A stretch of DNA of 64,000 bases, from positions 2,294,001-2,358,000 of the forward strand of contig NZ_CP119573.1 of the NCBI RefSeq assembly GCF_029278605.1. The letters run 5' to 3'. Made by a program: the position numbers and the translations under genes. Origin of the DNA: Cupriavidus sp. WKF15 (lineage in GTDB: Bacteria > Pseudomonadota > Gammaproteobacteria > Burkholderiales > Burkholderiaceae). The notes below the pieces were generated by a model. That model did no database searches. It was not told the origin of the DNA and saw nothing but the letters and a program-made list of their open reading frames with translations. Shown in pieces: positions 18,867 through 37,479 of the stretch (position 1 is its first letter; every line of letters begins with the position of its first letter).

Positions 18867-18870
18867 CGAG

Positions 18871-19050
18871 GGCATCGCGTGGTTCAACGGCCTGCAGGAA
18901 TCCGAGCGGGCTCGCTGGCTGGCCGACGCAGAAAGCGCGCGGCCCGTGGACGCATGGGGCGCGTACTTGCGCCAACTGGCCTACCAGGACGCCCTCAGCG
19001 AAGCGGAGAACTGGCCGGCCAGCCGCATCGGAAGCGCGATAGATTTGGCA
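18871..19050 (+). pseudogene. Fragment of a plasmid/ICE-type small protein
   Basis: A frame without start reads GIAWFNGLQESERARWL, then RPVDAWGAYLRQLAYQ. The W-(F/W)N-x2-(S/P)-x2-ERA-x-W pattern is common in short accessory proteins of plasmids and integrative elements. It is truncated at both ends between the RHS fragment and the lysyl-oxidase gene. Confidence 0.35.
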
Positions 19051-19102
19051 CCGCTCGCTTTCAATTCAGGTTCTTTCTTTGGCTGTGACCCGGTGGTCAG
19101 GC

Positions 19103-22078: not shown

Positions 22079-25009
22079 TTACGCTGTGCCTTCACGCTCT
22101 GCGAGTTCTTGTGCGGTCGGACCGGCGAGTCTCGCTTTACACCACGTCTCGAAACAGGATGCGACGGCCTTTGGATCGACACCGCGCTCCACGAGGAGAT
22201 GACCTAGTGACTTTGAACCGAGCAGACACTGGATCAGCCTGCACAGTTCCTCATCCCGTGCTTTCGTGGACGGTCCACTTGTCGGCAGCGGGTTGTCTCC
22301 ACCTAGAATGGCCGTCGCGGAAAGTAGTTGTTCGCGTGTGAAAGGGACCCCCCGCATAGTGAGGCCGGACGCCACCAGACGGATCCGGTAGACTCCCGCA
22401 AGGATCGCAGTCGTGCTGCCGTGGAAGCGGCCCGGATCTGTTTCGGGCAGCACCAGCGTCACCCGGGTATTGTCGGGCAAATCCAGCTCCGCGTACACGT
22501 TAGCGCGGTGCTCCACTGGGATACCGTATTCCGTGAGGGTCGCGGAAATAGTGACGCTGGCCCCGGGTTGGAGACTGTTTTGTGTCAGCCGTGCGTCCAT
22601 CCGAAGGTTCGTGAACGACTGAACGGTGAAGCTGTAACGGATTCCGCCCGAACTCGCACCCGCAGCGTTGGCAGCCGCCCAGCGCGATCCCTTCCGGTCG
22701 GCCATCTCGATAATCGCGTACCAGGTCCCAGCCCGGGCCGGTTGCGCTCCAAGCGCGAGCGGAAGCGTGAACCTGTAGTAACTCATGTTGGTGCCTACAC
22801 CATGCGCCGCCCCTAAGCCTGCGGCCGATGCAGGCGTCATTACGTCCCCCGCAGGCGTTTCGATGTAGAAATTGACTCCCCGATGATCGGTCAAAAGAAT
22901 CGTGGTTGCGTCGATGTCGGCTTCGTTTAGCTTGAAGGGAATACGTACCTTCATACCGGGAAAGATGGTCCCGTTCGGATCAGTAACGACGCTCGTGTTG
23001 GAGACCCCTGCAAGTACTTGCAGGAAATACTTCCGAAGGCGGAACTGATCGTCGATGGAGGGGCTCAGCGGGCCGCTAAGAAGCACGTAGCCGCCGGTGC
23101 TTCTCGTTATTGCATTCAGCGCCCCAGCGCTTACTTGCTGCGCGGTACCCAGACCAATGGCAAAGGTCTGCGCGTCTAGGCTTCCCATGACGTCAGCGAT
23201 GAATTGAGAGGTGTTCTCAAGTCCATCGGTAAACACGATCATGGCCTTCTTGAGATACGCGTTCACAGGGTTGAGCGTGGTCCTGCCAAGGGCGATTCCA
23301 TTCCCGATCGACGTCGCGCCCTGAGGCTGTAGATTGTCGATGGTCGTAACCATGTTCATGAGGTTCGGATCGTTTGTGGCGCCGGTAAGCGTGGTGACAT
23401 TAAACCCAGGGTAGGCTGCCTGGTCGAAGCTCACCATACCTACCCCGTTGTTGGCCTGAACGAGTTGACAGAAGTTCGTCGCCGCCTGATGGAGTACGTC
23501 GATCCGCTTTGTGGTGGCGTCAACGCCGGCGAGCCAGCCCATACTTCCTGACTGATCCAGAACAAGCATCACGCCGACCGTAGGCCGCATGATGCTGTTG
23601 CCGTGAATGGAGAAGACGAAGTCCTGGTTAGTTTCCACGCAGTGGATCGTCACCGATCCAACGGGAGCCGGTCCTGGCGCCCCACCTGTAAATTGGAACC
23701 ATATCCGGGCTACCTGCAACTGGTGAGGGCCGCTGGGCACAACAACGGTGTCCCCAGGAGGATTCTGTACAGAGTAGGGCGCGCTAGGCCCGAAGCCAGG
23801 CTTTACTTGCAGCGTGACAGCGCCGCACGCGAAGATCTCGAAGACGGCGGCGCGGGAAGCGGTCTCGCCCTGCGGCACTTCGTTGAAGTTGATGTCGTTG
23901 CCAGGATTCTCGGCCGCTATAACGCGCACTGTGGTCGGCAATGTGTCATAGCACGGTGGCGCGACGACAGAGAGATCGTGGTAGTCGTGCGGAGAGCCTT
24001 GGTTCTCATGAGTCGGCTCCCACGGGCGGATGTCATGATATTCGCCGTGACCTGTGCTCCAAGGTTCGACCAGATGCTTAAGGTTCTGATTCGAATGGGC
24101 TCCCACCGCGATGACGTCCACGTCCATGTTCGACTCGAGCCCATAGACTTGGTTCGGATCCAGCCGCTCCGGGTGCATCGGATCGCACTGCCACATGGCG
24201 TAAACCCGATCGACGTTGGAGTGGAGCAGGAACACAAACGGGTCGCGAAAAGCATCATGCGGGCTGATGTTAGCGAAATAAGGGTGCGCCGAGTTGTGGA
24301 TCGTTTCCCACGCCGTACGGAAATAGTTCGGCATGACGTTGTTGACGAAGTTCTGGTCGGTTCCATGGTTATTAGGGACTGCAGGGCCGAAGTCCTGAAG
24401 GCCCAGGACGTGGTTCTCCTGTGCTGCAGTGATGAGCGGCGCTGGAGCCGGCCCGGGGTAGCGGGACGGTCGCTCGACGTACTGTGGGGGATCGACTGGA
24501 TTGGTGCTGTTGTCCCGATCCTGTGGGTGACCGGAAGTACCGGCCAGTGGGTCGTAGAATCCCGCGCTGAGCCAAGGATCTCCAATCGCGTCATCACCGG
24601 GATTCACGGCTTGACCGTCTGGGAGTCCCGGCGACCCCATGAAATTGACGTCGAATAAGTTGAGCGTTCCAGTGTTCCCGCCTCCGAGGTTTGAATTGGG
24701 GAGGGCGCGAGGATCTTCCTTGAAGTCCCAGTAGTGGAGCGACAACTGAGGGTTGATCTCCCGGATCAGTGCCTCGAAGCGGTTGGTGATCTCGCGGTGC
24801 CACGGCAAAAACTCGGGGCCACCATGCACGTGTGTCGCTTGATGAATCTCATCCTGTTTGAACCACCAGCTCACGCCGCCCGGTGGCGTATCGCTCCGGC
24901 TGCCAGGATAGTATCGGTTGTTCAGTTCCTTGATAGCGTCGCGCAGCATGGCGCGCTCCGCAGGATCGACCGATTTGATATTCCGCCTGATGCCGTCTCC
25001 CAGTGCCAT
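22079..25009 (-). CDS. Tyrosinase domain fused to VWA domain
   Basis: A 976-residue protein. Residues about 1-350 are a tyrosinase (type 3 copper) domain: HGGPEFLPWHR gives His62 and His71 of the CuA site, and HNSAH plus DPFVFLLHSNVDRVYAMWQ give His238, His242 and His263 of CuB. The third CuA ligand is probably His56 or His60. A beta domain starts NFNEVPQGETASRAAVFE (about 374), then a VWA domain with MIDAS DQSGS at 485 and GATSIGNG and FTDGLEN further on. The C-terminal half aligns throughout with the lysyl-oxidase/VWA paralogue, including AQQVSAGALNAI and a cysteine-containing tail. No signal peptide is visible. Tyrosinases oxidise phenols and Tyr side chains to quinones, which cross-link with amines. 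Confidence 0.88.
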   Translation of the reverse strand: MALGDGIRRNIKSVDPAERAMLRDAIKELNNRYYPGSRSDTPPGGVSWWFKQDEIHQATHVHGGPEFLPWHREITNRFEALIREINPQLSLHYWDFKEDPRALPNSNLGGGNTGTLNLFDVNFMGSPGLPDGQAVNPGDDAIGDPWLSAGFYDPLAGTSGHPQDRDNSTNPVDPPQYVERPSRYPGPAPAPLITAAQENHVLGLQDFGPAVPNNHGTDQNFVNNVMPNYFRTAWETIHNSAHPYFANISPHDAFRDPFVFLLHSNVDRVYAMWQCDPMHPERLDPNQVYGLESNMDVDVIAVGAHSNQNLKHLVEPWSTGHGEYHDIRPWEPTHENQGSPHDYHDLSVVAPPCYDTLPTTVRVIAAENPGNDINFNEVPQGETASRAAVFEIFACGAVTLQVKPGFGPSAPYSVQNPPGDTVVVPSGPHQLQVARIWFQFTGGAPGPAPVGSVTIHCVETNQDFVFSIHGNSIMRPTVGVMLVLDQSGSMGWLAGVDATTKRIDVLHQAATNFCQLVQANNGVGMVSFDQAAYPGFNVTTLTGATNDPNLMNMVTTIDNLQPQGATSIGNGIALGRTTLNPVNAYLKKAMIVFTDGLENTSQFIADVMGSLDAQTFAIGLGTAQQVSAGALNAITRSTGGYVLLSGPLSPSIDDQFRLRKYFLQVLAGVSNTSVVTDPNGTIFPGMKVRIPFKLNEADIDATTILLTDHRGVNFYIETPAGDVMTPASAAGLGAAHGVGTNMSYYRFTLPLALGAQPARAGTWYAIIEMADRKGSRWAAANAAGASSGGIRYSFTVQSFTNLRMDARLTQNSLQPGASVTISATLTEYGIPVEHRANVYAELDLPDNTRVTLVLPETDPGRFHGSTTAILAGVYRIRLVASGLTMRGVPFTREQLLSATAILGGDNPLPTSGPSTKARDEELCRLIQCLLGSKSLGHLLVERGVDPKAVASCFETWCKARLAGPTAQELAEREGTA

Positions 25010-25047
25010 GGCTTACTCCCAACCGTATCTCAAACGGAAAGTGTGCT

Positions 25048-25410
25048 TTAGAACGTCGACTCGCAGATGGAGCATGCGCGCGAACCAGTCAATTCAATGG
25101 ACTGGCACCACAGACTTAGCCGCCAGGGATCACCGTGATCAATTACTAGACCAGCCGTGAGAACCTCGCTTTCCTCTTGCTTCTTCAAGCCATCCCACGT
25201 ATCCGCATGTCCAGCGGATCGCCTTGCCTCCAGCGGCACTGGCGCAAACGCTTGCCTCGCGGCCAGCCGTCCCCGCCAGATCAGCCACGTATGGTTTCCA
25301 CCGTGAAGCTGCGTCTCAGGGGCGCAAAGCATTTGGCCGCAGTGCAAGACCGAATAGTTGATTGCCGGGTTGGGCATTTGGAGCATAGGAGTTGCCAGGG
25401 TGGCAATCAA
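25048..25410 (-). CDS. Hypothetical protein upstream of the tyrosinase/VWA gene
   Basis: A 120-residue frame ending 38 bp before the tyrosinase/VWA start, on the same strand. It has two cysteine pairs (CGQMLC, and CQSIELTGSRACSIC at the end) and a tryptophan-rich patch, TWLIWRGRLAARQAF. No family is recognised, and the ribosome-binding site is weak. It may be a small gene cotranscribed with the tyrosinase or a chance frame. Confidence 0.3.
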   Translation of the reverse strand: MIATLATPMLQMPNPAINYSVLHCGQMLCAPETQLHGGNHTWLIWRGRLAARQAFAPVPLEARRSAGHADTWDGLKKQEESEVLTAGLVIDHGDPWRLSLWCQSIELTGSRACSICESTF

Positions 25411-25763
25411 GCGAGTCTGTCAAGCTTATTTTTTTAAATCTGGCGTAAATGCTTTTTAATATCAGATTTGAAACACTTTTACGCCAAATGAGCGACTCTG
25501 AGCGCTTTTATTGGATGAGAGCCTCCAACAGACAGAAAGCCTACTGATGCTGCAAGGCGACTGCGGCGATGGACACGCCCGGCTGCATGCAGGCCTGGAC
25601 ACGGGGCAGATGTGGCCGTGCAGGCAATGCGCGAAACGCGAGATCTCATTGATTCCGTCGCATGGATCAAGGAAGAGGGCGACAAGGACAAGCCGCTGGC
25701 CGCGCTCGATGCCGTCCTGGCACTCTAGCGTACCGAGACAGCCACGCGGGGTGACGATTTCGA
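25411..25763. other. Gene-poor stretch with an inverted repeat
   Basis: TGGCGTAAA at about 25441 and TTTACGCCA at about 25479 form a 9-bp inverted repeat around an AT-rich loop, possibly an IS end or recombination site. A short frame at 25620-25727 reads MRETRDLIDSVAWIKEEG and looks like a gene tail. No intact gene is present. Confidence 0.35.
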
Positions 25764-26260
25764 TTACGAGTACCCGTTTTCTTTGAACCAGGTGGCATAT
25801 GCTTCAGAGGAATCTACTTCTGCCAGGATCTCGATCTCCTGATCGGGCGCTGTGGCATGCGAACAATCGAGTAGCCGTCGTCAAGCATGAGTGTTGGTCG
25901 CGCGCGCCAACGCTTCTATTCCGCCAGCTTCCTTGCTGCCAGCTGTTTGGCTTCGTCCGGACTTGCAGCAACGCCGTAGTTCGTGGACCTATCCCACGCG
26001 CCGCCATCCAGGCAGCGAACTTCAAACTGACCGTCTTCACGCGTCACGGCGTATGGCCGGTCTCACCATTCGTCCAACTCCGCCGCTGAACGGGCTTCGT
26101 TGGGCGTCTGGTCGAAGTTCTCTGGCAGAACGGGATCTACTGAAAAGGATTCGGATTGCGCCTTGCGCGCGCACCAGTCCTGGTGGGCCTGTTGAAGATG
26201 ATGCCAGCGCCGTTCGGGGACGTTTCCTCGCGGCCACAGTAGACGATGGGTTGCCTTATC
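25764..26260 (-). pseudogene. Two decayed small accessory genes
   Basis: Minus-strand segments can be followed only by changing frame. The upstream one ends PENFDQTPNEARSAAELDEW then TGA. The downstream one reads AVTREDGQFEVRCLDGGAWD, then shifts to PTLMLDDGYSIVRMPQRP, then shifts again to DQEIEILAEVDSSEAYATWF before a TAA at 25764. The pieces are clearly coding but carry at least two indels, so the second gene is dead. Both resemble small hypothetical genes of Burkholderiaceae plasmids and islands; no function is known. Confidence 0.55.
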
Positions 26261-26336
26261 TTGTTAATCGCATTCATTGAGCGGATAATCTCGACGTCGT
26301 GTGCCTAAATAACGTTAGCAGCAGCTTTCATCTTCT

Positions 26337-26438
26337 ATGACAGCCAACGAACTACGTGAGTTTCTTCAGTATGTAGGTGTTTTTGGTATCGGGGGGATCG
26401 TTTCGTTGGCAATCGGCTCGGCAGTCTGGCGGAATTAG
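26337..26438 (+). CDS. 33-residue predicted membrane peptide
   Basis: MTANELREFLQYVGVFGIGG leads into a hydrophobic helix (IVSLAIGSAV) and stops after WRN. It could be a very small membrane protein or the N-terminal leftover of a larger one. No clear Shine-Dalgarno sequence precedes it. Confidence 0.3.
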   Translation: MTANELREFLQYVGVFGIGGIVSLAIGSAVWRN

Positions 26439-26535
26439 GGGCAAGGTCGCTGGTGTCGCGCGTCGGTGGACGAGCTGGGCAAGATCAGCCCGCTGTGGGT
26501 CACCGTCCGAGCTTATCCTCGAAAGGCGTTGAACC

Positions 26536-26985
26536 ATGACTGCAACTTTTGAACAGCTCGCGCGTGCGGCGCGATACCCTGGCCTAGATGTTCTCCATTT
26601 CGCGTACCAAGGCGAAGTGGAGAGCTTGGATTTTGTTGATGAGGACCGAATGTGGGTAAGCCTCATGGTAGATCCTTGCGAGCTTGCCGAGTGGAGGACG
26701 CCGCTAGGGCATTGGCAGCGCCTCAAGGAGAGTCCGGGGACTATCTACGCGCTACCTCAAGATGTCCCTTCCTCCACTCGGTGGCGAGGTTCCGGCCAGG
26801 CCATAAATATTATTTTGGACAAGAGCTGGATGACTAGCTCTCATTCAGCGGCAGTGTCCCCTGCTGGTGGACAGTATCTGCTTACGACGCAAGACCGTGT
26901 CCTGCGCCAGTTGATCCGCGAGATCTACGAGGACAACCAGTACGAGGCGCACGTTGGCCTCGCGCGGATCGCGGGCGCACGGCGC
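26536..26985 (+). pseudogene. AraC-type regulator, N-terminal remnant
   Basis: About 145 codons beginning MTATFEQLARAARYPGLDVL resemble the cupin-like N-terminal half of an AraC-family regulator: ESPGTIYALPQDVPSSTRW, then GQAINIILDKSWM, then DRVLRQLIREIYEDNQ. Protein-like sequence ends at about 26985, where the frame runs on through unrelated GC-rich DNA with no helix-turn-helix domain. The gene is therefore truncated and cannot bind DNA in the usual way. Confidence 0.45.
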
Positions 26986-27120
26986 CGCCTCCCGGGCCAC
27001 GGCGGCACAGCGGGTAAGCAGCGCGGCTTCGACGACGCGGGCGCTCATGGCGGGCGTCTCCCTTGGCAACGGACCAAACGCGAGACCGGCGAGGTGTTCT
27101 CACTTGCCGGCTCGGCGGCG

Positions 27121-27807
27121 TCACGTCGGGTCGGGATCGACTCCCCCATGCTGACGCAGAAAGTCCGCGAGCGCCTGATGCCCAAAGCGGCTCGCGATGG
27201 ACAACGCCGTGGAATTCCCCTCCGAGCGCACGTTGACGTCGGCCCCGGCGGCGACCAGCGCGTCGGCGATCTCAAGCCGGTTATTTCGCGCGGCGTACAT
27301 CAGCGCGGTCGCCCCGCGCCCGCTCCGCGCATTGACGTCCACTCCATAGCGCAGCAGGTCATTGACGCGCGTGAGATCGCCATCTGCCGCAGACTGCATC
27401 AGCTCGGTCAGGCCGTTCTGCTCGACGAGCTTTGCCTGATGGCGCGCCTCGCGCTGCGCAGGCGTGAGCGTCCAGTGGCGCAACCAGCCATAGGCGAAGT
27501 ACAGGATCAGCGCCACACTCGCTACGAGCCCGATCCATGTATGCGCGAGCATCTTGGCGAACACCATGGTGACGATGACCAGCAGGAATTGGCCAGCCCC
27601 CTTGCCCAGCGACTCGACCCTGCGGGACCTTCCGGACCCATCCAACAGAATCGGCGCTGCCGGTCGCGGCGGCACCGCCTCGCCGCGCTCGGTAAGAATC
27701 GCCTCGATGGTCGCATGGGCGTCCTCGGAGAGCTCGTCGCCGAGCGCACGGCGCTGCAACAGATAGGCGGAGTCGTAGCGCTGTAATGTTTCCTTGAAAC
27801 TCGACAT
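27121..27807 (-). CDS. Membrane-anchored ankyrin-repeat protein
   Basis: A 228-residue protein starting MSSFKETLQRYDSAYLLQRR. A hydrophobic pair of helices at about residues 75-110 (VIVTMVFAKMLAHTWIGLVA) is followed by three ankyrin repeats: GLTELMQSAADGDLTRVNDL, GATALMYAARNNRLEIADAL and STALSIASRFGHQALADFL, each ending in the GxDVN turn or its variant. The start at 27807 has AAAGGGG upstream. Ankyrin repeats mediate protein binding; the partner is unknown. It is an isolated, probably intact island cargo gene. Confidence 0.82.
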   Translation of the reverse strand: MSSFKETLQRYDSAYLLQRRALGDELSEDAHATIEAILTERGEAVPPRPAAPILLDGSGRSRRVESLGKGAGQFLLVIVTMVFAKMLAHTWIGLVASVALILYFAYGWLRHWTLTPAQREARHQAKLVEQNGLTELMQSAADGDLTRVNDLLRYGVDVNARSGRGATALMYAARNNRLEIADALVAAGADVNVRSEGNSTALSIASRFGHQALADFLRQHGGVDPDPT

Positions 27808-28071
27808 GGTCCCCTTTCTTCGATCCGATTCGCCGCCAATCAACACATCCGTTCCGGTTGCTTAGCCATGGCGCGATTCCGGTGGAAAGCCGCCAGCGTA
27901 GTGACAACCTCGGCCCGCTCGTACCCCCGTTTCGTGGGGTCAGTGGCCCGGGCTGCTGGCCACTGTCGCGGCCCGGACGGCCGCCGCAGCGAACGTCGCC
28001 TCGTAGGAAGTCAATTTGCTTGTAAGCACTAAATTTTGTGCGCCGGCACCTTGGAACAGCCGTCGTTACCG

Positions 28072-28313
28072 TTATTTGCCCGGCTGGCCGGGCGGCCCGC
28101 TTTGCGGCAGGCAACGGATTCGAGCCGCCGCCTCAAAGCACAGACTCACCCGCCCGGACTCCGTATCGACCACCCAGACGCGATCCTCCTGCGCGAGGAT
28201 CCGCGCGCCGTCGCGATCTGATAGCGGCCATGTTTCTCGCAGCCGCCCAGCACGATGAGCAGGCAACACGCAATGGCGATTCGCAGGGCCATTTGCGGAC
28301 GCGTCTTCGACAT
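28072..28313 (-). pseudogene. Small lipoprotein gene with a frameshift
   Basis: One frame gives a perfect lipoprotein signal (IAIACCLLIVLGGCEKHG) and then YQIATA; the next frame continues EDRVWVVDTESGRVSLCF, which is the typical C-terminal half of small Burkholderiaceae lipoproteins of this kind. A single-base change near GATCGCGACGGCGCGCGG, about 28210, breaks the reading frame. Either the gene is dead or there is a sequencing error. Start at 28313 (MSKTRPQM). Confidence 0.55.
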
Positions 28314-28626
28314 GGTGCTTCCCCTTGCTCGATTGGTTGAAATCGCCGCCGCCGTTCTGGATGACCTGACTGCTGGTTTCACGTCCCATGGTATCGCAGT
28401 GCGACCGCGAGACTCTGCAAATTTGCCGTCGACCGGGATCGCGCGACCATCGCGCAATATCAAAAATGAAACGTTCTGAATGGCATTTAATTCAGCATTA
28501 GATCATTTTCATCACGCGATCGGCTACCGCCTCGGGATTAGCGATCGACTATCCTTCGCTCATGAGCTGGAGCGTTGACACAGCGCTCGTGATCGTCCGC
28601 GCCGCACTACCAACAAGAGCGGGGGC
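28314..28626. other. Spacer before the hydrolase lipoprotein gene
   Basis: 313 bp without a convincing gene. An AT-rich block (CAAAAATGAAACGTTCTGAATGG region, then TTAATTCAGCATTAG, about 28457-28502) marks a likely promoter zone for the hydrolase gene at 28627. Confidence 0.3.
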
Positions 28627-30027
28627 ATGATGCGACACTTCATTTCCTTGTTGGGCAGCGTGCTGCTAGCCGCCCAAGTGGGGTGCACAGCCCCAAGTCC
28701 ACCCCCAAAGCCCGACAATCAATCGAGCCTGCCGAGCTATCGTCCGCCGGTCTACCAGCAACCGACCTCCCCCATCTCTGAACCGAGCCCGCCGGTCGAG
28801 CGGCGCAAGCGGCCGTTCTATCAGCCGAGTTCCCCAGCATATCAACCGCCCGTCGCTCAGCCTAGCTCCCCCACTCCGCCACCGTTGGCGAAGCAGCCGA
28901 GCCCTCCTAACGGCGAGCAGCCACATGAAGCGGCGGATATCCGCGAGAAGCGCCACGCTGCGCGCCCTCCTGCTGCTAATCCCGCACCGCCCGTTTACTT
29001 ACCTTCACCCGCGGTACTTGCCCATCATGGCGAGCCGGCGCCTTACGCCCTCGTCAAGGTGTTCTTTGGGACCGACCGACAGGTCATTGGCAGTACCGCG
29101 CCAACCACGGCATTTGGCGCGCAGCGCTCAAGTCTGGTCAGCTATGGCGAGGTCGACGTGAGCATTCCGCGTGACCATAGACAGGGCGCACTGGAGTCGC
29201 CTTCACTCTGGCGGATGCGATTTCGAGTGGACCCGAACAAGGACGTGATGGTCCTGCACACGTCAGTCATGACCAAGGAGGCATTCGCTGCTGCATTAAG
29301 GACTGAGGTCAAGGCATCTTCGAAACCGAGCCTGCTGATCTTTGTTCACGGCTATAACGTGAGCTTTACAGACGCCGCGCGCCGCACGGCGCAGATTGCC
29401 TACGACCTCGCCTTTCCGGGCGTCGCGGTGTTTTTCAGTTGGCCGTCTCAGGATCAATTTGTCGATTACACGGTCGATGAACAGAGTATCGAATGGGCGC
29501 AACCCCACTTGGAGCAGTTCTTACATGATCTCCTGAGCCAGTCAGACGCCGACAGGGTCTACCTGATCGCCCACAGCATGGGCAACCGCGCGCTCACTAG
29601 GACGCTTGTGTCACTGGCGGCCAAAGATCCGACGATCGTCCGGCGCATTAAGGAGGTCATTTTGGCCGCCCCCGATATTGATGCCGACGTCTTTGTCGAA
29701 CAGATCGCGCCGGGGCTAGCGCAACTTGGCGCCCCCGTAACGCTTTATGCATCGTCCAACGACCGTGCGCTCATGGCGTCGAAGCAGGTGCATGGCGGAG
29801 CCCGAGCGGGCGAAGCGGGCGATCGCCTCGTCGTGTGCCAAGGCATTGAAACGGTCGACGCGTCAAACACGGATACCGGCCTAATCGGGCATTCCTACTT
29901 CGGCGACCGGCGTTCGGTGCTGGCCGACATGTTTTACGTCGTCCGGAATGACGTACGGGCGGCGCAACGCTATGGCCTCAGGGCCCTGACTCTGAAAAAT
30001 CAGACCTATTGGCTGATTGAGAAATAG
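28627..30027 (+). CDS. DUF900-family alpha/beta hydrolase lipoprotein
   Basis: A 466-residue protein. The N-terminus is a lipoprotein signal with lipobox-like LLAAQVGC, then a Pro/Ser-rich linker of about 120 residues containing repeats such as PSYRPPVYQQP and PSSPAYQPPVA. The catalytic part (about residues 140-460) is a DUF900 alpha/beta hydrolase: LLIFVHGYNVSF is the oxyanion region, YLIAHSMGNRAL holds the nucleophile Ser in GxSxG form, and GHSYFGD supplies the likely catalytic His. Probably attached to the envelope by its linker. Substrate unknown; relatives are annotated as esterases/lipases. Confidence 0.85.
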   Translation: MMRHFISLLGSVLLAAQVGCTAPSPPPKPDNQSSLPSYRPPVYQQPTSPISEPSPPVERRKRPFYQPSSPAYQPPVAQPSSPTPPPLAKQPSPPNGEQPHEAADIREKRHAARPPAANPAPPVYLPSPAVLAHHGEPAPYALVKVFFGTDRQVIGSTAPTTAFGAQRSSLVSYGEVDVSIPRDHRQGALESPSLWRMRFRVDPNKDVMVLHTSVMTKEAFAAALRTEVKASSKPSLLIFVHGYNVSFTDAARRTAQIAYDLAFPGVAVFFSWPSQDQFVDYTVDEQSIEWAQPHLEQFLHDLLSQSDADRVYLIAHSMGNRALTRTLVSLAAKDPTIVRRIKEVILAAPDIDADVFVEQIAPGLAQLGAPVTLYASSNDRALMASKQVHGGARAGEAGDRLVVCQGIETVDASNTDTGLIGHSYFGDRRSVLADMFYVVRNDVRAAQRYGLRALTLKNQTYWLIEK

Positions 30028-30272
30028 TCGTCGCGCGGAGTGTTGCGGGCGCCGAGGCCGACGCTCAGCCCCACCACCAGCGCGATCGCAAGGATGAGAA
30101 GGGCGAGCCAGATGGCGACGAACGGGGTTGGTAGCCGCGCTCGTGTTCGTTCATGGGGAGGAGTTCCGTTCAGGGTGACTCGGCTTCGGCGGACGGTCGA
30201 TGCGGTCCGTCGCGGGAGCTCGGCACGGCGGTCGTTTCCGGGGGGCGGCCGTGCCGACTCACTTTGCCGCAC
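30006..30272 (-). CDS. Small membrane protein, start uncertain
   Basis: The C-terminal 45 residues include one strong membrane helix (FVAIWLALLILAIALVVGLS) and end YFSISQ. The longest frame starts at 30272, overlapping the stop of the next upstream gene by 14 bp and giving 88 residues, but its N-terminal half is Arg-rich and unconvincing. Alternatively, an ATG at about 30154 in another frame reads MNEHERGYQP and would join by a frameshift. The 3' end overlaps the convergent hydrolase gene by 22 bp. Confidence 0.4.
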   Translation of the reverse strand: MRQSESARPPPGNDRRAELPRRTASTVRRSRVTLNGTPPHERTRARLPTPFVAIWLALLILAIALVVGLSVGLGARNTPRDDYFSISQ

Positions 30273-30540
30273 GCAACTCCTCCCGGATCATGTCATAGCT
30301 CTCCAGTACGTAGAGCTCGCGCTGCGCGCGCACGACCCCGCCGGCGTCGTCCTCCTCATTGACGTAGTCATGGGGCTGCGCCAGCACGAGGTGCACTTGG
30401 CTACCCAAGGCATCGCGCCGCGCGGAGACGTCGACAAAGCTGGTGATCTGATCCGCGCGCAGACTCCCCCTGCGCGGCCCCGGTTCCGGGTCGGTGGAAT
30501 CCCAAACAATGGTGACTTCCAAGAATCGCTCCAACATCAT
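30259..30540 (-). CDS. Hypothetical acidic protein
   Basis: A 93-residue protein starting MMLERFLEVTIVWDSTDPEP, with a mixed alpha/beta composition and a C-terminal helix ELYVLESYDMIREELRAA. No family is recognised. Residue use and the balanced composition suggest a real gene, and it may be cotranscribed with the short membrane protein that overlaps its end. There is no signal peptide. Confidence 0.45.
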   Translation of the reverse strand: MMLERFLEVTIVWDSTDPEPGPRRGSLRADQITSFVDVSARRDALGSQVHLVLAQPHDYVNEEDDAGGVVRAQRELYVLESYDMIREELRAAK

Positions 30541-31610
30541 GGCGCTCCGTGATGACCGTGGCAGGCGGCGCCGCAGCGGCGCCAAGGCAGTCTAGCACGC
30601 CGCCACCGTCGATCCCGTCGGCGGGCGGGCCCCGCCGCGTCACCTGTTCTCGCCCTGCCATATCCGCGCGGTCGTGCCCCCATCTGGTCGGGGACAGCGC
30701 CCCGGTTCGGTTGGCGCATCGGGGTCGAGCACTAGTAGTGATGGACCGCGGCGCGGATCGAGCCTCAACTGAAGGGGTCGCACGCGGTCACGCGCCGGTG
30801 TCGGCCTTGCCGAAAGGCGGTTGACGGGTCAGCCTGACGCCTCGGAACAGGCGTGGGTTTCCGGGGGCCTCGCCACATCGGGCCGGCGTGGTCGTCGCCT
30901 CCCCACACTGGGCGTGCACGGGCCGGGCGCTTTACGCGCCCACCGTGATCACGACGAAGCGCTTCTCAGCCTCCGAAAGATAGCGGACCGGGCTCTTTTG
31001 TTCCCGCTCACGCACCTTGGCAGTCGACGTGATGCCGTGCACGACGACCCCTATCGCGAGCCCGGTGCCCCACGCGAGCACGGGAGTTGCAGGGCAACCT
31101 TTTTAGAAGCCGTCCACCCCGCTGTGCCGGGGATCGCAAATTTCTCCACCGCTTTGACGAGGACATCGCCAATCCCTTTGGCGGCTTCGACGCTAAAGAT
31201 CTGGCGCGCGTATGCGCTCAGATTCGCCGGTTGCCACTAGCAGCATGTGAAAACGTACCGCGGCGGATATACGCAGCCCCCGCGAGGCCGGCTACCGCCC
31301 ACTAGCGCCCACGTTGCGCCGGTGATATGGGGGCCATTGCCCAACCCGATGTGAAGGACTGCGAACGCTCAAGCATTTTTGCTTGGCAATTTTCGTCACG
31401 CCGACGGCATCCATCACCGTCAATCTGTTTCGGGTATGAAACTTAGTAATTTTTCAATCAGTGCAAAATACAATTTAATTGTATTCTACAAAGTCGACTC
31501 TAGAGTGAACAGGACTGCCTGAATGGCAGAATCTTATTGCTTACGTGCGTATTTGCTTCAAGGCATTTCGTAATGCCCATGACGCTCAAATGCTACTGGC
31601 GGTCCGGATT
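30541..31610. other. About 1 kb with no intact gene
   Basis: Only GC-rich shadow frames are present. A segment near 30750-30855 is repeated at 32456-32553. Around 31100-31300 a short frame gives RFDEDIANPFGGFDAKDL, possibly a gene scrap, with no recognisable family. AT content rises from 31430 onward. Confidence 0.4.
30750..30855. repeat. Direct repeat, copy 1
   Basis: Shares GAAGGGGTCGCACGCGGTCA-type sequence and CAGCCTGACGCCTCGGAACA with 32456-32553, roughly 80 percent identical by eye over about 100 bp with one small gap. The two copies bound 1.7 kb that holds the 31764 gene. Confidence 0.6.
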
Positions 31611-31688
31611 ATGAAGCACGCCATTATGCTGACGATCTCAATCCTTGTTGGATTGTCGTCGTCGGGTTTTTCGCAGTCGCAACTGTAG
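31611..31688 (+). pseudogene. Signal-peptide-like leftover
   Basis: MKHAIMLTISILVGLSSSGF followed by SQSQL and a stop. It has the layout of a Sec signal peptide with no mature protein behind it, so it is probably the 5' tip of a deleted exported-protein gene. Confidence 0.3.
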
Positions 31689-31763
31689 GGTCGGCCGTTT
31701 AATAGTGACTAAACGTGTGTTTAGCAGACAACTCTGATGGCAGTTCACTTACGGAGGTTAGCG

Positions 31764-32237
31764 ATGCATACTCCTCTTCCACCCAATTGGGAGAATCTTT
31801 ACTGGTGGGCGCTTCATAACCCCTTTGGCGGTGATCCTCGCCATCAAGGGCCCTACACCACCATGCTAGCAAGGGAGGAGCCAGTCCCAGTCCCTTGGCG
31901 CGCCACTCAACCCGAACCGAACTCTTGGTCACCTGCGGCTGCGTTTCTCATCTCTGCGATCGGTCTTAACCAAGTCGCGCGACAGATGCCAGAAGGGCCA
32001 ACCCGTTCGGATCTGACCAAAAGCACCGACCGGGCTATTCGCGAGTTCATTGATGGTTGCGGCACACGAGTGCCGGGCTTTCATTGGCCGTGGCCGGGAC
32101 CGAACCCGTCTATTCAAGCCTTGGTGTCAGAACTCGGGATCGCCGCGCAAGGTTTTGATGGAACGATGCGGGAGGAAATCCTTCAAGTCGCTGGCCGGAT
32201 TGTTCAAGAGTCCTTCGGTTCCGAAGCAAACGGCTAA
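31764..32237 (+). CDS. Hypothetical protein
   Basis: A 157-residue soluble protein starting MHTPLPPNWENLYWWALHNP, with GGAGG 7 bases before the ATG. It is Trp/Pro-rich in the first half (PVPWRATQPEPNSWSPAAAF) and has two helices near the end (ALVSELGIAAQGF, EEILQVAGRIVQESF). No family is recognised. A start further upstream in frame is possible but lacks a ribosome-binding site. It lies between the two copies of a direct repeat, so it may be a small mobile cargo unit. Confidence 0.55.
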   Translation: MHTPLPPNWENLYWWALHNPFGGDPRHQGPYTTMLAREEPVPVPWRATQPEPNSWSPAAAFLISAIGLNQVARQMPEGPTRSDLTKSTDRAIREFIDGCGTRVPGFHWPWPGPNPSIQALVSELGIAAQGFDGTMREEILQVAGRIVQESFGSEANG

Positions 32238-32455
32238 CTGCTACTTGGCAGCGCCGCCCTGATGGCGGTTTCTCGGACTTCCGTGCTGTGCAGGCAAGCG
32301 GTCGATCACGCACCGGATCCGCAGCCGCGTGAAAACTCGGCTTCGGTGCGCTTTGCGGAAGTCCGCGCCCCTATACGTCGGGCTGCTCCTGCGCGCAGGG
32401 CGCACCGGATCGATCCCCAAACCGAGTCGCTCGTCCCGTTGCCAGTGCCGATCCG

Positions 32456-32553
32456 GCGGCACGGATCGAGCCTGAAATGAAGGGGTCGCACGCGGTCAAG
32501 CGCCTGTGTCGGCATCGCCGGAGGGGGCAGCCTGACGCCTCGGAACAGGCGAA
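32456..32553. repeat. Direct repeat, copy 2
   Basis: Second copy of the sequence at 30750-30855, again containing GAAGGGGTCGCACGCGGTCA and CAGCCTGACGCCTCGGAACA. AT-rich DNA of the next operon begins right after it, so it marks a composition border inside the island. Confidence 0.6.
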
Positions 32554-32712
32554 ATCCCTCCATACATCACCGTTCCAGGACGCTCGAAGCGTTGGCTTGT
32601 ATAAATCAAGCCTTGACTAGATGCCTGTTGATGCCGAGCAACTTATATGCATCTCGGTTTCATTAACTTTACGTAATCGATACGCGTAACATCAGGTATG
32701 AATTACATTTAC

Positions 32713-32740
32713 TTGCACTCTCCTGCGGCAGAAATACGAT
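32713..32740 (+). promoter_or_regulatory. Candidate promoter of the MNIO operon
   Basis: TTGCAC (32713-32718), a 16-bp spacer and TACGAT (32735-32740) resemble a sigma-70 promoter. Transcription would begin near 32748, inside the longer in-frame extension of the precursor frame, which supports the GTG at 32809 as the true start. Confidence 0.35.
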
Positions 32741-32808
32741 GTATCGGAGGCATCCGCCTTATTTGGATCCTCCAGGTCATTCGTAGATCGTGGCAAAAGG
32801 AGAATATC

Positions 32809-33048
32809 GTGCAAACTTCGGAAAAATCACGCGTAAGTAATCATGTAAAGATTGTAGTCACAGAAGGCAAAGTTACCTTGGAGGATCTTCACAAAGCACT
32901 CGATGAGGCAATTCGGGTCATGGTGCCGAAAGGTGGGTGCAACTGCGGTCTTACCGGATTCGATCTCAGTTTTCTGCGCGGAGATCCTGAACTGACCCAG
33001 TTAGCTCAGATCCCGAATGTACAGGGTGGTCTTGTGACGCGCGAGTGA
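32809..33048 (+). CDS. Candidate RiPP precursor peptide of the MNIO cluster
   Basis: A 79-residue peptide from a GTG start with GGAG 8-9 bases upstream. Residues 1-40 form a leader-like part with an amphipathic helix (TLEDLHKALDEAIRVM). Residues 41-79 form the core candidate: GGCNCGLTGFDLSFLRGDP (Cys44, Cys46, Asp52, Asp59), then a Pro/Gln-containing tail ending LVTRE. Cys, Asp and Asn near a short peptide's C-terminal half are known MNIO targets. It overlaps the GTG of the MNIO gene by 4 bp. No hydrophobic signal peptide is present and the peptide is not Cys-rich like bufferins. I do not know a named family. Which residue is modified cannot be read from sequence. Confidence 0.6.
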   Translation: MQTSEKSRVSNHVKIVVTEGKVTLEDLHKALDEAIRVMVPKGGCNCGLTGFDLSFLRGDPELTQLAQIPNVQGGLVTRE

Positions 33049-33989
33049 AGGGACAACCACTTCATTGTCTATCAAAAAAAATGGCCCCTCATATGGAAAC
33101 GTATTTGAATCCCACTGACGCAGAGGGAGGCATCACGGTGGCGCTAGGCGTGACATATGAGGGGCGCGACCCGGATCTTCTTAGCCGCCTTCTCCCCAAT
33201 GTTGCCTATGTGGAGATAACTCTCGAAACGATAGCTGAAGTTAAGGACGGTAAAATTGTGCTCAGCGACGAGATTATGTCGGAGTTCAAAAATATGGGGA
33301 ACGCCGCAAAGATCATCGTGCATGGCGTTAGCTTGTCGATCGGCTCACATGATAGTTGGGGCGTAACATATCTTCACCTGCTGGACAAATTTATGGAGCA
33401 GGTGGATGTGGCTTGGCACAGCGAACACCTCGGTTATACCAAGGTTGACGGCGAGCATCTTGGTATTATGCTTGCATTGCCAAAGACCGAGCAGGCCCTA
33501 GATTTAGTTTGCGAGCGAGTACACCGAATACAGGAGCGCTACAGAATTCCTTTTCTCCTGGAAAACATCGTTCACGTTATTCCTGATTTTGATGGTGACT
33601 ATGACGACGCCGAATTCCTTAATCAACTATCTCGCAGAACTGGATGTGGCCTAATACTTGATGTCTATAACCTTGAGTGCGATGCACATAATCACGGTTT
33701 TGACATCCGCAATTTCTTGGATAGGCTTGATGCGAGAAGCATCAAAGAAGTACACATGGCGCGAGGAGTGGAGCATAACGGGTTCCTCTTGGATGTACAT
33801 TCTCAATTGCCATCTAATTCGACAATCCACCTTGCTAAGGACGTTGTTTTGTCTGCACAGGACAGTGTCCAGGTTGTGGTGTATGAGTTTATGCCAGAGG
33901 CAGTGCCAGGTCTCGGTCATACCGCCATTGCTGAAGAGTTGGCTCGGATGCGCCGATTCTTTTCGGGATTAAGCCATGCATCTCGCTAA
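33045..33989 (+). CDS. MNIO-family (DUF692) iron oxidase, RiPP-modifying
   Basis: A protein of up to 314 residues with all DUF692/multinuclear non-haem iron oxidase landmarks in order: HGVSLSIGS (His93), WHSEHLGY (His128), FLLENI (Glu173), LILDVYN (Asp206), NHGFD, VHMARG (His237), LLDVHSQ (Asp250/His252) and VVYEFMPE (Glu281). Family members MbnB, TglH, ChrH and ApyH use two or three irons and oxygen to remodel Cys, Asp or other residues of peptides bound with a partner protein. The start is uncertain: GTG at 33045 overlaps the precursor stop, while an ATG at 33079 (MAPHMETY) is an alternative. GC content is well below that of the chromosome. Confidence 0.88.
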   Translation: MKGQPLHCLSKKMAPHMETYLNPTDAEGGITVALGVTYEGRDPDLLSRLLPNVAYVEITLETIAEVKDGKIVLSDEIMSEFKNMGNAAKIIVHGVSLSIGSHDSWGVTYLHLLDKFMEQVDVAWHSEHLGYTKVDGEHLGIMLALPKTEQALDLVCERVHRIQERYRIPFLLENIVHVIPDFDGDYDDAEFLNQLSRRTGCGLILDVYNLECDAHNHGFDIRNFLDRLDARSIKEVHMARGVEHNGFLLDVHSQLPSNSTIHLAKDVVLSAQDSVQVVVYEFMPEAVPGLGHTAIAEELARMRRFFSGLSHASR

Positions 33990-34509
33990 TCACCAGAGAA
34001 AGCTATTGGGATTAATTCGATCCTCATATCAAGTTGGACCTGATGACGAGGCGTACTTTCATGTCGTTGCGCAATCAAGGGATCTGATCGAAGCAAGGAC
34101 TAATATTGTTTTGTGGCGCGCATATGTGCTGCAGCGTGCCTGCGTATTGACGTACCGCCTTCTTGAGAGACGCGGAATTATTGGCGATGTGTTAGGTAAG
34201 TTTTGCATGGAATATAATATTTCGCCATTTCGTGAAACACAAGGGCCAGCATTCCTCGAGATGCTGAGCAATCACGACGATCTTATAGTTGCATCGGTGG
34301 CTCGATTTGAGCTCGCATTGTTAAGAGTCAGACAGGGGGATCCCAATATCTATATCATCAAATGGAATATCGACCCACTTGGGATTCTTAATAGCCTTGC
34401 CAAGGACGTCCCATATGATGGCGCCCTTGTCGATCAGGGGTGCTATGAAGCTATTGTGTCTAAAACACTTCCAAATTTGTTTAACGTTGCCAAAGTGGAA
34501 GAACATTGA
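33976..34509 (+). CDS. MNIO partner protein (MbnC/TglI-like role)
   Basis: A 177-residue mainly helical protein whose ATG overlaps the MNIO stop by 14 bp. NHDDLIVASVARFELALLRV matches the P-x-L-x-D-x-ARFE-x-A element of the DUF2063/MbnC-like partner proteins, and IKWNIDPLGILNSL matches the W-x-x-DP-x-x-x-L segment near their ends. In characterised systems the partner binds the leader peptide and forms a complex with the oxidase. The order precursor-oxidase-partner supports one pathway. No transporter or protease gene follows, so export and leader removal would need proteins from elsewhere. Confidence 0.65.
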   Translation: MHLANHQRKLLGLIRSSYQVGPDDEAYFHVVAQSRDLIEARTNIVLWRAYVLQRACVLTYRLLERRGIIGDVLGKFCMEYNISPFRETQGPAFLEMLSNHDDLIVASVARFELALLRVRQGDPNIYIIKWNIDPLGILNSLAKDVPYDGALVDQGCYEAIVSKTLPNLFNVAKVEEH

Positions 34510-34769
34510 ATGGACCGCCGTGGGGTGAGGTAGCGCATCGTCTCGATATTTGAGGGTATCTAGCAGTACGCAGAAAAGTTTAGGGATGAACCGTGCTATT
34601 ACGATAAGAAGGCGGCGCAGCGGGGGGTTTTGGATCGTAATGTGAATGGATGTCGGACCCGTTAGTCTAGCGTCGGAGCCACCTGTCACTGGAACGGCTT
34701 AGCTAGCTCCGCATCCGCAGATCGATAGTCTTCAACGAGTATGACCTCATGCGGACCGAATCTCTGAAG
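34510..34769. other. Spacer between convergent MNIO operon and tniQ-like gene
   Basis: 260 bp with no gene seen; it presumably carries the terminators of the two convergent units, although no strong hairpin with a T-run stands out. Confidence 0.35.
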
Positions 34770-36392
34770 TTAGGCCTCTCTCCCCAGCCCATGGCAACTA
34801 TCTCGGCTATTCGCGATCTTTCTCCTTGCCTGGTACTCGGCATTTGATTCATGTGAGCACAAAATCAGCTTATCGATACGGGGTAGCATTCGTGCCACGC
34901 GCAGCGTAGTAGGATTCAATCCCGCTTCGCTCAATATTGCCACGAAGGAGCATCGTCGTGGGGGATTGCTCTCGTATATCCGATCGATAGCCTGTCGAAC
35001 GCGATCTTCTAATGCCGAGCATTGCCTATTTGTCATCTTTGCTAACCGCGTCTCCGTACTTTCCTCGTTTCTTCTTCCACGGCGTTTTTCGAGACGCTGC
35101 TGCCACCATATTTCGTCATTTCTCTCAAGCCAAGCAAACAGGTTAGGGGACTTTCGGCGGAGCGCACTGCGACTCAACAGCGGAAAGATCCGTTCCAGAG
35201 CGACCCACCGTTCCCGCGCCTCACGACATCTCAAATTGCTCCGAATGTTGTCATAGAGCGGACGTAGGCCATCTTCCCGCAAATACTCGTCGATTGTCGT
35301 AGCCCATCTCACGCCGATAAGATCTCGGATTTCCTCACGCGTACGACCTGCCGCCACCAACGCTGGAAGATCTGGCCTTCCGTATCGCCTACGACGGTCA
35401 ACAGGAATCCGATACGCCGCTCCGGCGGTTCTTGCCACCCAATCGTACGGCCATGTCCGTAGCGCTTCGGACTTCAACGAATGCGGCACTTTGGCACCGT
35501 ACTGCCCGTCTTCCATTAGGAATTGTTCGAATAGGATGATGTAGACGGGATGAATGGTACAAGCACGTTCTTCGTTCGCATGCCCTGCATCCCCAATCCA
35601 CCAAAGCAGGTCATTGATGCGCCAAGGATATTGAGCGAGCCTCAGAAGTTGCTCGTCCGACACGCTGCCTCGACAAAACTTGTGGAAATCTTGGCGCAGC
35701 GCCGAAGTTCTAAACGCGCCGTATGGGTGAACATACCCACGATCACGAAGAAGATCGACGAGCTTCCTCTTGAACGGGCCGACCGCGTTGGCCTCGTCTG
35801 CGACCCTTTGTGCCGCCCGGGCGAAACGCAGGGCGCCGCGGGGAGCGGCAGTAACGGCCTTCTTCGGCGGTCGTGCCCCCTCAACCCGCTTGGACAGCAG
35901 GTTTCCACATGCATAGCAGGCCGTCACGAATGGAATCTGATGAGGGCAAAGGATCGCGCGAACCCCATACCTTCTCCACATAGCCCATTCACACTTCCCG
36001 CACGTCCGTACGGGCCGGTTATCGCAATTGACCCAGGGTGGAAAGAAAGGTGGTATGTAGTAGCCACCATTACCCGTCACCACCCGTTGAAGCAGATTCG
36101 CACGCCCGGTCGGTGTCATCCCGAGACCCGCTAGCGCGCACAGCGTGTTTTCATTCAGCAGAGTCGGCACCGAATACAGCCCACCGGACACACGCTCTAT
36201 GACGGACAGGGGTACGGTCACCGTGGCAAATGCTGTCGTCTGCAGATATCTCACTGCCTTTATCCGCGCAGAAGAATAGTCACCAGAACTCCATGAACCC
36301 AGTATCATATCGGCAATACTGCTTGCAGTTGCGTACGGAGGCAGTTCCACGATAGGGACGGATAAATGCTTTTCGCTCGGTGCTGTCATCAT
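34770..36392 (-). CDS. TniQ/TnsD-like transposition target-selection protein
   Basis: A 540-residue protein. The N-terminal TniQ region contains ETAS-type loop LNENTLCALAGLGMTPTGR and the zinc-binding cluster CGKCEWAMWRRYG, then CPHQIPFVTACYACGNLL. A TnsD-like C-terminal region carries helix-turn-helix-like repeats and ends LPRIDKLILCSHES then YQARRKIA, the family's closing pattern. TnsD/TniQ proteins bind the target site and recruit TnsC. The ATG at 36392 has GGAG 9 bases upstream; a longer start at 36464 is possible. It faces inward from the right end of the island, as in Tn7 relatives, but tnsA, tnsB and tnsC are absent. Confidence 0.78.
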   Translation of the reverse strand: MMTAPSEKHLSVPIVELPPYATASSIADMILGSWSSGDYSSARIKAVRYLQTTAFATVTVPLSVIERVSGGLYSVPTLLNENTLCALAGLGMTPTGRANLLQRVVTGNGGYYIPPFFPPWVNCDNRPVRTCGKCEWAMWRRYGVRAILCPHQIPFVTACYACGNLLSKRVEGARPPKKAVTAAPRGALRFARAAQRVADEANAVGPFKRKLVDLLRDRGYVHPYGAFRTSALRQDFHKFCRGSVSDEQLLRLAQYPWRINDLLWWIGDAGHANEERACTIHPVYIILFEQFLMEDGQYGAKVPHSLKSEALRTWPYDWVARTAGAAYRIPVDRRRRYGRPDLPALVAAGRTREEIRDLIGVRWATTIDEYLREDGLRPLYDNIRSNLRCREARERWVALERIFPLLSRSALRRKSPNLFAWLERNDEIWWQQRLEKRRGRRNEESTETRLAKMTNRQCSALEDRVRQAIDRIYESNPPRRCSFVAILSEAGLNPTTLRVARMLPRIDKLILCSHESNAEYQARRKIANSRDSCHGLGREA

Positions 36393-36412
36393 TTGGCTCC
36401 AGAGGGTTAGGC

Positions 36413-36958
36413 TCACCGCATTGCGCGCTTGCCTGTCATTGCTCTCTTTAGACTGTCCAGCCACGCCGGCAGATCGAACTTTTGACCTGCGATGGCACGC
36501 GAAGCCATGGCCGGCAAAGGTGCGGCTCTGCCTGCGCCATGCTCAATGGCCGTCCCGCCATGCCCGGCGGTGCTGCGCGGCAGCGCAACTCCATCATCGG
36601 AAGACTCTATGAGGTCCTGAAACGGTTCCCCTTCGTCGACCATGTCGATGTCTACCGCAACGGACTCTTCCCCATCGCCTTCGTCCTTGTCTCGTTCCTT
36701 TTTCTGAATCAATAGACATCTGCGCAAGCCCTTGGCAACTTCTTCGCCAACGGCGTCGCCGACATCTCCGGCGTAGGTGTCCAGCGACTTGATAGTGGCG
36801 GGCAATTCCAGGAGTTCAAACCTTTCGCTTCCCTGCCCTCCTGGGCTGAGACGCACCCCGGACGGCCATTCGAGATCGACGTGGCGTTCCCTCCCGATCC
36901 CTCGCGGCTTGTGGCGATATGGAGGCGAGCAAGGCCTCATACACAATAAACACCTCAC
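36413..36958 (-). CDS. Unknown protein upstream of the tniQ-like gene
   Basis: A 181-residue frame (GTG at 36958, or ATG at 36940) ending 20 bp before the TniQ start on the same strand. It contains HVDLEWPSGVRLSP, an acidic middle (KKERDKDEGDGEESVAVDID) and a C-terminal helix FDLPAWLDSLKRAM. Codon use looks coding. From its position it could be the leftover C-terminal part of a core transposition gene of the island, but I see no TnsA, TnsB or TnsC motif, so the function is unknown. Confidence 0.4.
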   Translation of the reverse strand: MRCLLCMRPCSPPYRHKPRGIGRERHVDLEWPSGVRLSPGGQGSERFELLELPATIKSLDTYAGDVGDAVGEEVAKGLRRCLLIQKKERDKDEGDGEESVAVDIDMVDEGEPFQDLIESSDDGVALPRSTAGHGGTAIEHGAGRAAPLPAMASRAIAGQKFDLPAWLDSLKRAMTGKRAMR

Positions 36959-37370
36959 AAATATGGATTACGAGAGGCGATAATGTCGCACTCGCGCAGC
37001 ACTGACTGGCTGCAGGATGGTATAGACGAAAGATGCCTGCATGACGCCGCCAGAAATCTCCTTGCTACAGTGGGAGGTTTCAAGGCGAAGTCGAAAAGTC
37101 CCTTATAGGGTAGGCGATCTTTTTCTGGCACATGCGGACACTTTCCGTGCGGTAATCGAGCAGTCTCAGACGACAGCCATGCGAGCGGCCCTGGCGCCCT
37201 TGCCGTGGCGACAGGGTCTTCGCGCCAGGGCTCGCATGACCTATACTGGGCTTGGCGGTCGGCCTCTCCAGCGCGATGGCTGTCGAAACCAAAGCGCTCG
37301 AACAGAAAGACAGAAGAACCAAAGAATCCTGTACGCCATCGGTTGCCGAGCGCTCCGAGCAACAACTGGA

Positions 37371-37383
37371 GCGATTTGTCAAA
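37371..37383 (+). repeat. Right-end internal binding-type repeat
   Basis: GCGATTTGTCAAA, identical to 13525-13537 near the left end and in the same orientation on the top strand. Confidence 0.6.
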
Positions 37384-37419
37384 GCTCGGTGCCTCAAGGG
37401 TTTCCAGCCAATTCCGCCA

Positions 37420-37432
37420 GGTTTGACAAACC
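37420..37432 (-). repeat. Right-end binding-type repeat, second from tip
   Basis: GGTTTGACAAACC, a perfect 13-base palindrome around TTTGACAAA, 41 bp in from the right tip on the strand matching the terminal copy. Confidence 0.6.
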
Positions 37433-37444
37433 TCAAGCAGCGAG

Positions 37445-37471
37445 TTTGACAAACCGTATTATCCCGGGACA
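37445..37471 (-). repeat. Right terminal inverted repeat of the island
   Basis: Reads TGTCCCGGGATAATACGG then TTTGTCAAA on the minus strand, with the same 18-base spacing from tip to TTTGTCAAA as the left end. Confidence 0.85.
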
Positions 37472-37479
37472 TACGCGCC
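37472..37479. repeat. Right target-site duplication of the island
   Basis: TACGCGCC, identical to 13348-13355, directly after the terminal ACA. Confidence 0.85.

Follow-up and report, generated by a model that had tools for sequence, protein, structure and literature searches.

Multinuclear non-haem iron-dependent oxidases (MNIOs) catalyse unusual oxidations and are being explored family by family. In the parts of PMC12452194 (2025) covered here, adjamnio-1 is a putative family defined in silico and named after MNIO cluster 1, represented by WP_073215760 from Massilia sp. CF038, with no Sec signal and with PME-type 2 partner proteins. The captophorin group makes 5-thiooxazoles on Lys-Cys with the loss of four hydrogens, and its products bind copper (PMC12668002, in part). 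Residues modified by MNIOs elsewhere include Asp, Asn, Phe and homocitrulline (PMC12452194 and PMC13174530, both in part), the known Asp and Asn targets being C-terminal in the sections of PMC12452194 concerned. The present analysis concerns an MNIO operon of the ribosomally synthesised and post-translationally modified peptide (RiPP) type in the soil bacterium Cupriavidus sp. WKF15, comprising three plus-strand genes in a row at 32809-34509, each overlapping the next and encoding in turn a precursor peptide, an oxidase and a partner protein. All coordinates are positions of the 64-kb stretch of DNA analysed (the window), and the calls made rest on sequence analysis, structure models and the literature. 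The three overlapping genes, the 79-residue peptide and the low GC content announced in an earlier note on this DNA were all present, the GC fraction being 0.475 for the operon and 0.67 for the flanks on either side of the 24-kb insert that holds it.

As judged by comparison with its relatives, the operon is a genuine and well-conserved one of the MNIO RiPP type, and it very likely makes a small protein, the two cysteines of which are very probably altered by an iron enzyme. What is new here is a widely shared G-C-x(1-2)-C-G core in the precursors, and the setting of the operon in a transposon.

A protein search with the precursor returned 255 relatives at E values up to 1, of which 120, the window's own database copy included, were listed and, together with the query, formed the 121 rows to which the following counts refer. 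Every row contained GGCNCG and exactly two cysteines, 120 of the 121 contained the longer GGCNCGLTGFD, and F-x-RGDP was present in 116. Lengths among the matches listed ranged from 71 to 113 residues, and the named sources among them included Acidobacteriota, Burkholderiales, Polyangia and others. As the earlier note had stated, cysteines are few and none is C-terminal: in the window precursor they occupy positions 44 and 46 of 79, and an encoded C-terminal cysteine is absent. The absence of a signal peptide was likewise borne out, as far as hydropathy can tell, none of the 121 rows having a 12-residue window with a mean of at least 1.6 within its first 40 residues. Asn45 and Asp52 proved invariant in a 43-sequence alignment of the core family. 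The window peptide matched no Pfam or NCBIfam model, the 43 members gave scattered weak matches to the same collections (best E 0.016 to 0.018), and no relative was found in the PDB (best E 0.59). On this conservation the precursor family is real, and the proposal of a RiPP-type operon with a conserved precursor motif is thereby supported by sequence.

More distant precursors were found by reading the gene 5' of more distant oxidases. The Dyadobacter-type loci (L006, L034/L041 and L035/L042) carried [SN]GC-x-x-CGLGGRD, L036/L043 carried TGCLACGLVGVD, and L044, L045 and L046 carried [AG]GC-x-x-CGR. A 35-residue precursor (L005:5877-5981), with MGCRTCGLAGWD behind AAAAGGAGG, retained the GCRTCGLAGWD core only, next to an oxidase 53% identical to that of the window. 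In a 14-sequence alignment G43, C44, C46 and G47 were the sole invariant residues; Asn45 was not kept in the distant precursors, where two residues separate the cysteines, and Asp52 was lost in L038, L039 and L044. Of 16 loci, 15 had the core upstream of the oxidase, and of 9092 control windows taken from these loci 119 contained it, a contrast that is descriptive, the motif having been defined on these same, partly related loci. The alignments thus indicate that the precursor motif is narrower than the CNCGLTGFD singled out in the earlier note, which holds throughout nearly all of the close family, and also more widely shared, G-C-x(1-2)-C-G surviving alone in distant relatives. Sharing of this core across distant relatives points to the residues of interest: the two cysteines are the probable place at which the enzyme acts, Asn45 and Asp52 being less probable as targets. 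Cleavage of a double-glycine leader before CNCG was thought unlikely because the distant relatives keep the second glycine only. The L005 peptide may be regarded as a candidate natural minimal substrate.

The oxidase matched PF05114 (MNIO, formerly DUF692) with an E value of 7e-48 and 163.6 bits against a cut-off of 25, its database copy (P0124) having 294 residues versus the 314 of the window frame. The nine iron ligands of TglH are His71, His107, Glu151, Asp184, Asn187, His216, Asp229, His231 and Glu258 (PMC10880893, in part). Eight of them are identical in the window oxidase (H93, H128, E173, D206, N209, H237, D250 and H252), and the ninth, Glu258, aligns with V279, two residues from an E281 kept in at least 97% of 120 oxidase rows, such that the earlier view of a complete set of metal-ligand motifs is settled for eight positions and not for the ninth. 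Among NCBIfam models the nearest were the bufferin maturase and HvfB, both scoring below their equivalog cut-offs (BufB, 143.1 of 310 bits; HvfB, 121.5 of 360 bits). The host genome also contains a second MNIO (G000:C3:847173-847955; L009), which groups with the bufferin type in the oxidase tree.

The window partner matched no Pfam family, and DUF2063 (PF09836) was not among the nine Pfam families matched by any of 52 partner-family members at an E value of 1. The best match of its structure model was TglI, a known MNIO partner. Both the lack of a DUF2063 match and the NGO1945/TglI-related predicted fold fit a PME-type 2 protein, and according to the model the partner is predicted to fold as known MNIO partners do. 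The ARFE element to which the earlier note had drawn attention is present at residues 109-112 and yet is not universal, being found in 16 of 120 partner rows (query included) against 96 with AQFE, with [AS][RQ]FE accounting for 115; ARFE as a motif was not found in the parts of the MNIO literature examined for it.

Peptide searches of whole genomes matched seven, namely the window's own, G399, G400, G401, G405, G764 and G1651, in all of which oxidase and partner followed directly downstream, the copy in G405 (Massilia sp. H-1) being broken in frame. Four of the seven had already been reached via the oxidase and a fifth is the genome of the window itself, leaving G764 and G1651 as independent cases, two of two. 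Homologues of the peptide without an MNIO, which the earlier note had named as the finding that would speak against it, were thus not seen in this small test, and the comparison of loci indicates that the genes for precursor, oxidase and partner recur together. Few sequenced genomes contain the system: the precursor was found in one of 60 genomes of the genus, one of 398 of the family and one of 399 of the order, each time the window's own, in three of 17 genomes of the genus of Massilia sp. CF038, and in three and two of 140 genomes in two overlapping draws of Acidobacteriota. For the oxidase, one of 347 Acidobacteriota genomes matched at an E value of 1e-50, this being the centre genome itself, and three of 222 and six of 257 at 1e-35, centre included. 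Metagenomes contain many clusters. The precursor was absent from the viral contigs and plasmids searched, and no MNIO relative was found in the phages searched; 38 plasmid records held an MNIO at an E value of 1e-20, all with less than 60% identity.

The analysis of ends and repeats indicates that the operon entered this genome as cargo of a TniQ/TnsD-type transposon (Table 1), a setting that shows a route for such operons into unrelated hosts. An ExeM/NucH nuclease gene is interrupted by the insert; of the 546 positions of the nuclease profile, 1-231 are matched by the left piece of the gene and 236-545 by the right. Compared over their first 30 bases, the two ends are identical at 20, and TTTGWCAAA occurs five times in the 64 kb, twice near the left end and three times near the right, with 0.15 occurrences expected. 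The duplication here is 8 bp, and the 8-mer concerned, TACGCGCC, occurs eight times in the 64 kb on both strands together; Tn7 itself gives 5-bp duplications. Pfam scans of 12 frames of the insert, with TniQ included and the operon left aside, showed none of the core transposase genes tnsA, tnsB/tniA and tnsC/tniB, some frames lying outside these scans. For the flank, the nearest named relatives were Cupriavidus replicons, which covered 43% of an 18-kb query with about 86% identity, and no relative of the window TniQ occurred in the 18 operon loci searched (15 distinct places). Additional cargo at 13770-18817 comprised AIPR/MzaE-like phage-defence, Tn3 transposase and RHS fragments and an intact-looking Imm50 immunity gene, followed on the minus strand by neighbouring genes for lysyl oxidase-VWA (19106-21757) and tyrosinase-VWA (22082-25009) proteins. 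Both lysyl oxidase and tyrosinase belong to the copper enzymes. Direct repeats of 70 nt (87%) and 31 nt (94%), about 1.7 kb apart, were recorded just upstream of the operon at 30748-30853 and 32456-32551.

Table 1. Positions of the operon, its parts and the surrounding transposon in the 64-kb window
Feature	Position	Strand	Basis or remark
Shine-Dalgarno-like AAAAGGAG	32795..32802	+	before GTG start of precursor gene; from sequence
Gene for 79-residue precursor of adjamnio-1 type	32809..33048	+	GTG start; GGCNCG and exactly two Cys in family
Codons for G42-G43-C44-N45-C46-G47	32932..32949	+	conserved core, proposed target; alignment and locus comparison
MNIO (PF05114, formerly DUF692) oxidase gene	33045..33989	+	true start uncertain
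MNIO partner gene, 177 aa, PME-type 2-like	33976..34509	+	no Pfam domain; TglI/NGO1945-like predicted fold
TnsD/TniQ-family gene	34770..36464	-	PF15978, E 4.5e-18; adjoins operon
Transposon, 24,116 bp, TGT...ACA ends, carries operon	13356..37471		end and repeat analysis
Target-site duplication TACGCGCC, 8 bp, left copy	13348..13355		
Target-site duplication TACGCGCC, 8 bp, right copy	37472..37479		
ExeM/NucH gene pieces	12504-13496 and 37492-38580		

The transporter, protease and methyltransferase that the earlier note had reported as missing were indeed absent from the scanned frames beside the window operon, and Pfam searches of 20 neighbour frames from eight loci yielded no radical SAM enzyme, methyltransferase or P450. 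The statement does not extend to all relatives: in all three Dyadobacter-type loci (L006, L041 and L042), though in none of 13 others, the partner gene was followed by a Peptidase_M3 gene of the same strand, and a MacB/FtsX-type permease (L005) and a Neprosin (L001) were each encountered once, on the other strand. The Peptidase_M3 gene at L006:7417-9231 could encode a maturation protease or be a chance neighbour. Two sigma-like proteins, one from L002 that exceeds two Pfam sigma cut-offs and one from L006 that falls short of its own, served as queries against 17 loci, a search that other sigma types would escape. It revealed a divergent sigma-like gene upstream of the operon in six of these loci, in distant lineages, namely L002 (3813-5427), L006, L041, L042, L044 and L046, with an anti-sigma-like gene behind it in L002, L044 and L046; L047 gave a weak sigma match elsewhere in the locus. 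The sigma-like protein of Dyadobacter also matched ISG15 (E 0.006), which was regarded as fortuitous.

Taken together, the data suggest that the first gene probably encodes a small, perhaps partly folded cytosolic protein, the G-C-N-C-G loop of which is oxidised by the MNIO with its partner. The partner and oxidase would form a complex, in which the partner would bind the N-terminal strand-helix part of the precursor, a recognition step proposed from a weak model, and present the loop. On entry of the loop into the iron site one or both cysteines would be oxidised, most likely Cys46, the x-Cys-Gly setting of which is like that of the Lys-Cys-Gly targets of captophorins. A four-electron oxidation, of about -4 Da per cysteine, would then give a 5-thiooxazole-like group. 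Given that neither a signal peptide nor a dedicated exporter was seen, the product would stay in the cytosol, there to bind a metal such as Cu(I) or to act in redox stress. These elements differ in strength: modification of cysteine by the oxidase-partner pair is highly probable on the conservation described, whereas a thiooxazole-like product is the favoured chemistry by analogy, the captophorin group supplying the nearest NCBIfam models, and is itself put at somewhat under an even chance, a tentative standing that it shares with a metal role for the product.

Several observations weigh against parts of this reading. Both the oxidation of cysteine and its product are inferred from sequence comparison, and a folded precursor is weakly suggested by a poor predicted structure with a pLDDT of 60. 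One of the 16 loci, L047, shows CGGCYSG in place of the core, and in hhalign comparisons the core family had probabilities of 6.4 and 0.2% against the two distant precursor groups, which had one of 63.8% against each other; core family and distant precursors are accordingly linked by position and core, profile comparison alone being no proof of common descent. With Foldseek alone the partner had no match at an E value of 0.001 or better, and in the structure comparison two MbnC rows tied with an unrelated row at a Z of 4.8, helical folds giving middling Z values by chance. The type of the window partner is that of TglI and of precursors without signal peptides, not that of the captophorins. 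The sigma-like gene accompanies one of eight core-family loci, the window being among the seven without it, with the consequence that the case for a metal role is indirect, and the Peptidase_M3 gene behind the partner makes processing possible in Dyadobacter-type loci.

The alternative that survives best, though still unlikely, retains cysteine as the target and changes the reaction, to carbon excision as with TglHI, to macrocyclisation or rearrangement as with the SAM-using ChrH, or to a Cys-Cys cross-link, which would be new chemistry. The oxidase tree speaks for this, and also against thiooxazole formation, since it places the window oxidase apart from the bufferin-type enzymes of the same genomes (100/99, with a long-branch warning), and hence the chemistry may differ; the closeness of the partner to TglI and a paired Cys-x(1-2)-Cys unlike the Lys-Cys repeats of captophorins point the same way. 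However, bufferin maturase and HvfB are the NCBIfam models closest in score, and TglH acts on a C-terminal cysteine that the window peptide does not have.

Two further alternatives are each improbable to a similar degree. In the first, the MNIO would hydroxylate a residue other than cysteine, such as Asp52 (of GFD) or Asn45, or convert it to an aminopyruvate-like group, the cysteines serving only to bind metal or enzyme. MNIOs do accept such residues elsewhere, and both are invariant in the core family; but in the distant precursors the cysteines and glycines stay where Asn45, and in three loci Asp52, do not, and the known Asp and Asn targets lie at the C-terminus. In the second, the operon of this genome would be a decaying transposon passenger, neither expressed nor functional. 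No sigma-70-like site was present in the 400 bases 5' of the operon, other promoter types being outside the scan, and a promoter and terminator scan of the region gave results no better than shuffles. The transposon contains the AIPR, Tn3 transposase and RHS fragments noted above, and the Massilia sp. H-1 copy is frame-broken. Against such decay, all three frames are open, the precursor gene has a good ribosome site, and the family-invariant residues are intact, the invariant lists being numbered on the window protein. That the small protein is an unmodified metal or iron-sulphur carrier, with the MNIO-partner pair degenerate or a separate fellow traveller, is very improbable: loops of the CxC and CxxC kinds often serve as metal sites, but oxidase ligands and partner are strongly conserved and all three genes accompany one another in the seven peptide matches, the one frame-broken copy included.

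Oxidation of the G-C-N-C-G loop of a retained protein, if extended to all relatives, would imply a widespread class of cytosolic MNIO products, mostly from uncultured soil organisms, consisting of small folded proteins whose active part would be an oxidised G-C-x(1-2)-C-G loop and not a peptide set free from them. The class would comprise CxC and CxxC versions, a sigma-linked branch and a minimal form of 35 residues, would spread by transposon, and might have a new two-cysteine product. This generalisation is rather doubtful. The operon could reveal if modified proteins retained in the cell are also among the products of MNIOs, and its very small gene set, tightly conserved target and lack of visible export make it tractable in E. 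coli.

Comparison with the known systems places the locus as follows. The methanobactin pair MbnBC differs, the window oxidase scoring 43 bits with the MbnB model versus 143 with BufB, and the methanobactin precursor is a short leader-core peptide. In the TglHI system of pearlin (3-thiaglutamate) biosynthesis, TglA is modified at an added C-terminal cysteine, whereas the cysteine pair of the window peptide is internal and neither ligation nor export companion genes were seen beside the operon; the C-terminal cysteine typical of pearlins is missing from the encoded peptide, although one could be added later. The captophorins (bufferins and oxazolins/fontiphorin; BufABC, HvfABC and FonABC) share with the window the gene order precursor-MNIO-partner, a target cysteine followed by glycine (EGKCG) and the nearest oxidase models, but their precursors have Sec signals and more cysteines or repeats, their partners are DUF2063 (PME-type 1) proteins, and their oxidases are separate in the tree; the window operon has neither the Sec signal nor the DUF2063 partner of the bufferins.

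That the family is undescribed, as the earlier note had considered possible, is not supported, since it has almost certainly been listed in silico already as adjamnio-1, a name that the literature search found in PMC12452194 only; no chemistry for it was found in the titles, abstracts and passages of the MNIO literature among the matches listed, and the suggestion of an undescribed RiPP class holds in part only. As far as the covered parts of PMC12452194 go, no difference from adjamnio-1 was found, and neither the transposon setting nor the core shared with distant precursors figures in them. In Massilia sp. CF038 the window's precursor family (L003) lies next to the strain's only close MNIO, and the three other MNIO matches of that strain adjoin signal-peptide-bearing peptides that, judged by eye, are bufferin-like. 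The likeness thus comprises the source strain, the lack of a Sec signal, a PME-type 2 partner and a cysteine-containing motif, as given in the covered parts of that paper, and the window family is almost certainly adjamnio-1, the link being made via strain and elimination and not via the sequence of WP_073215760.
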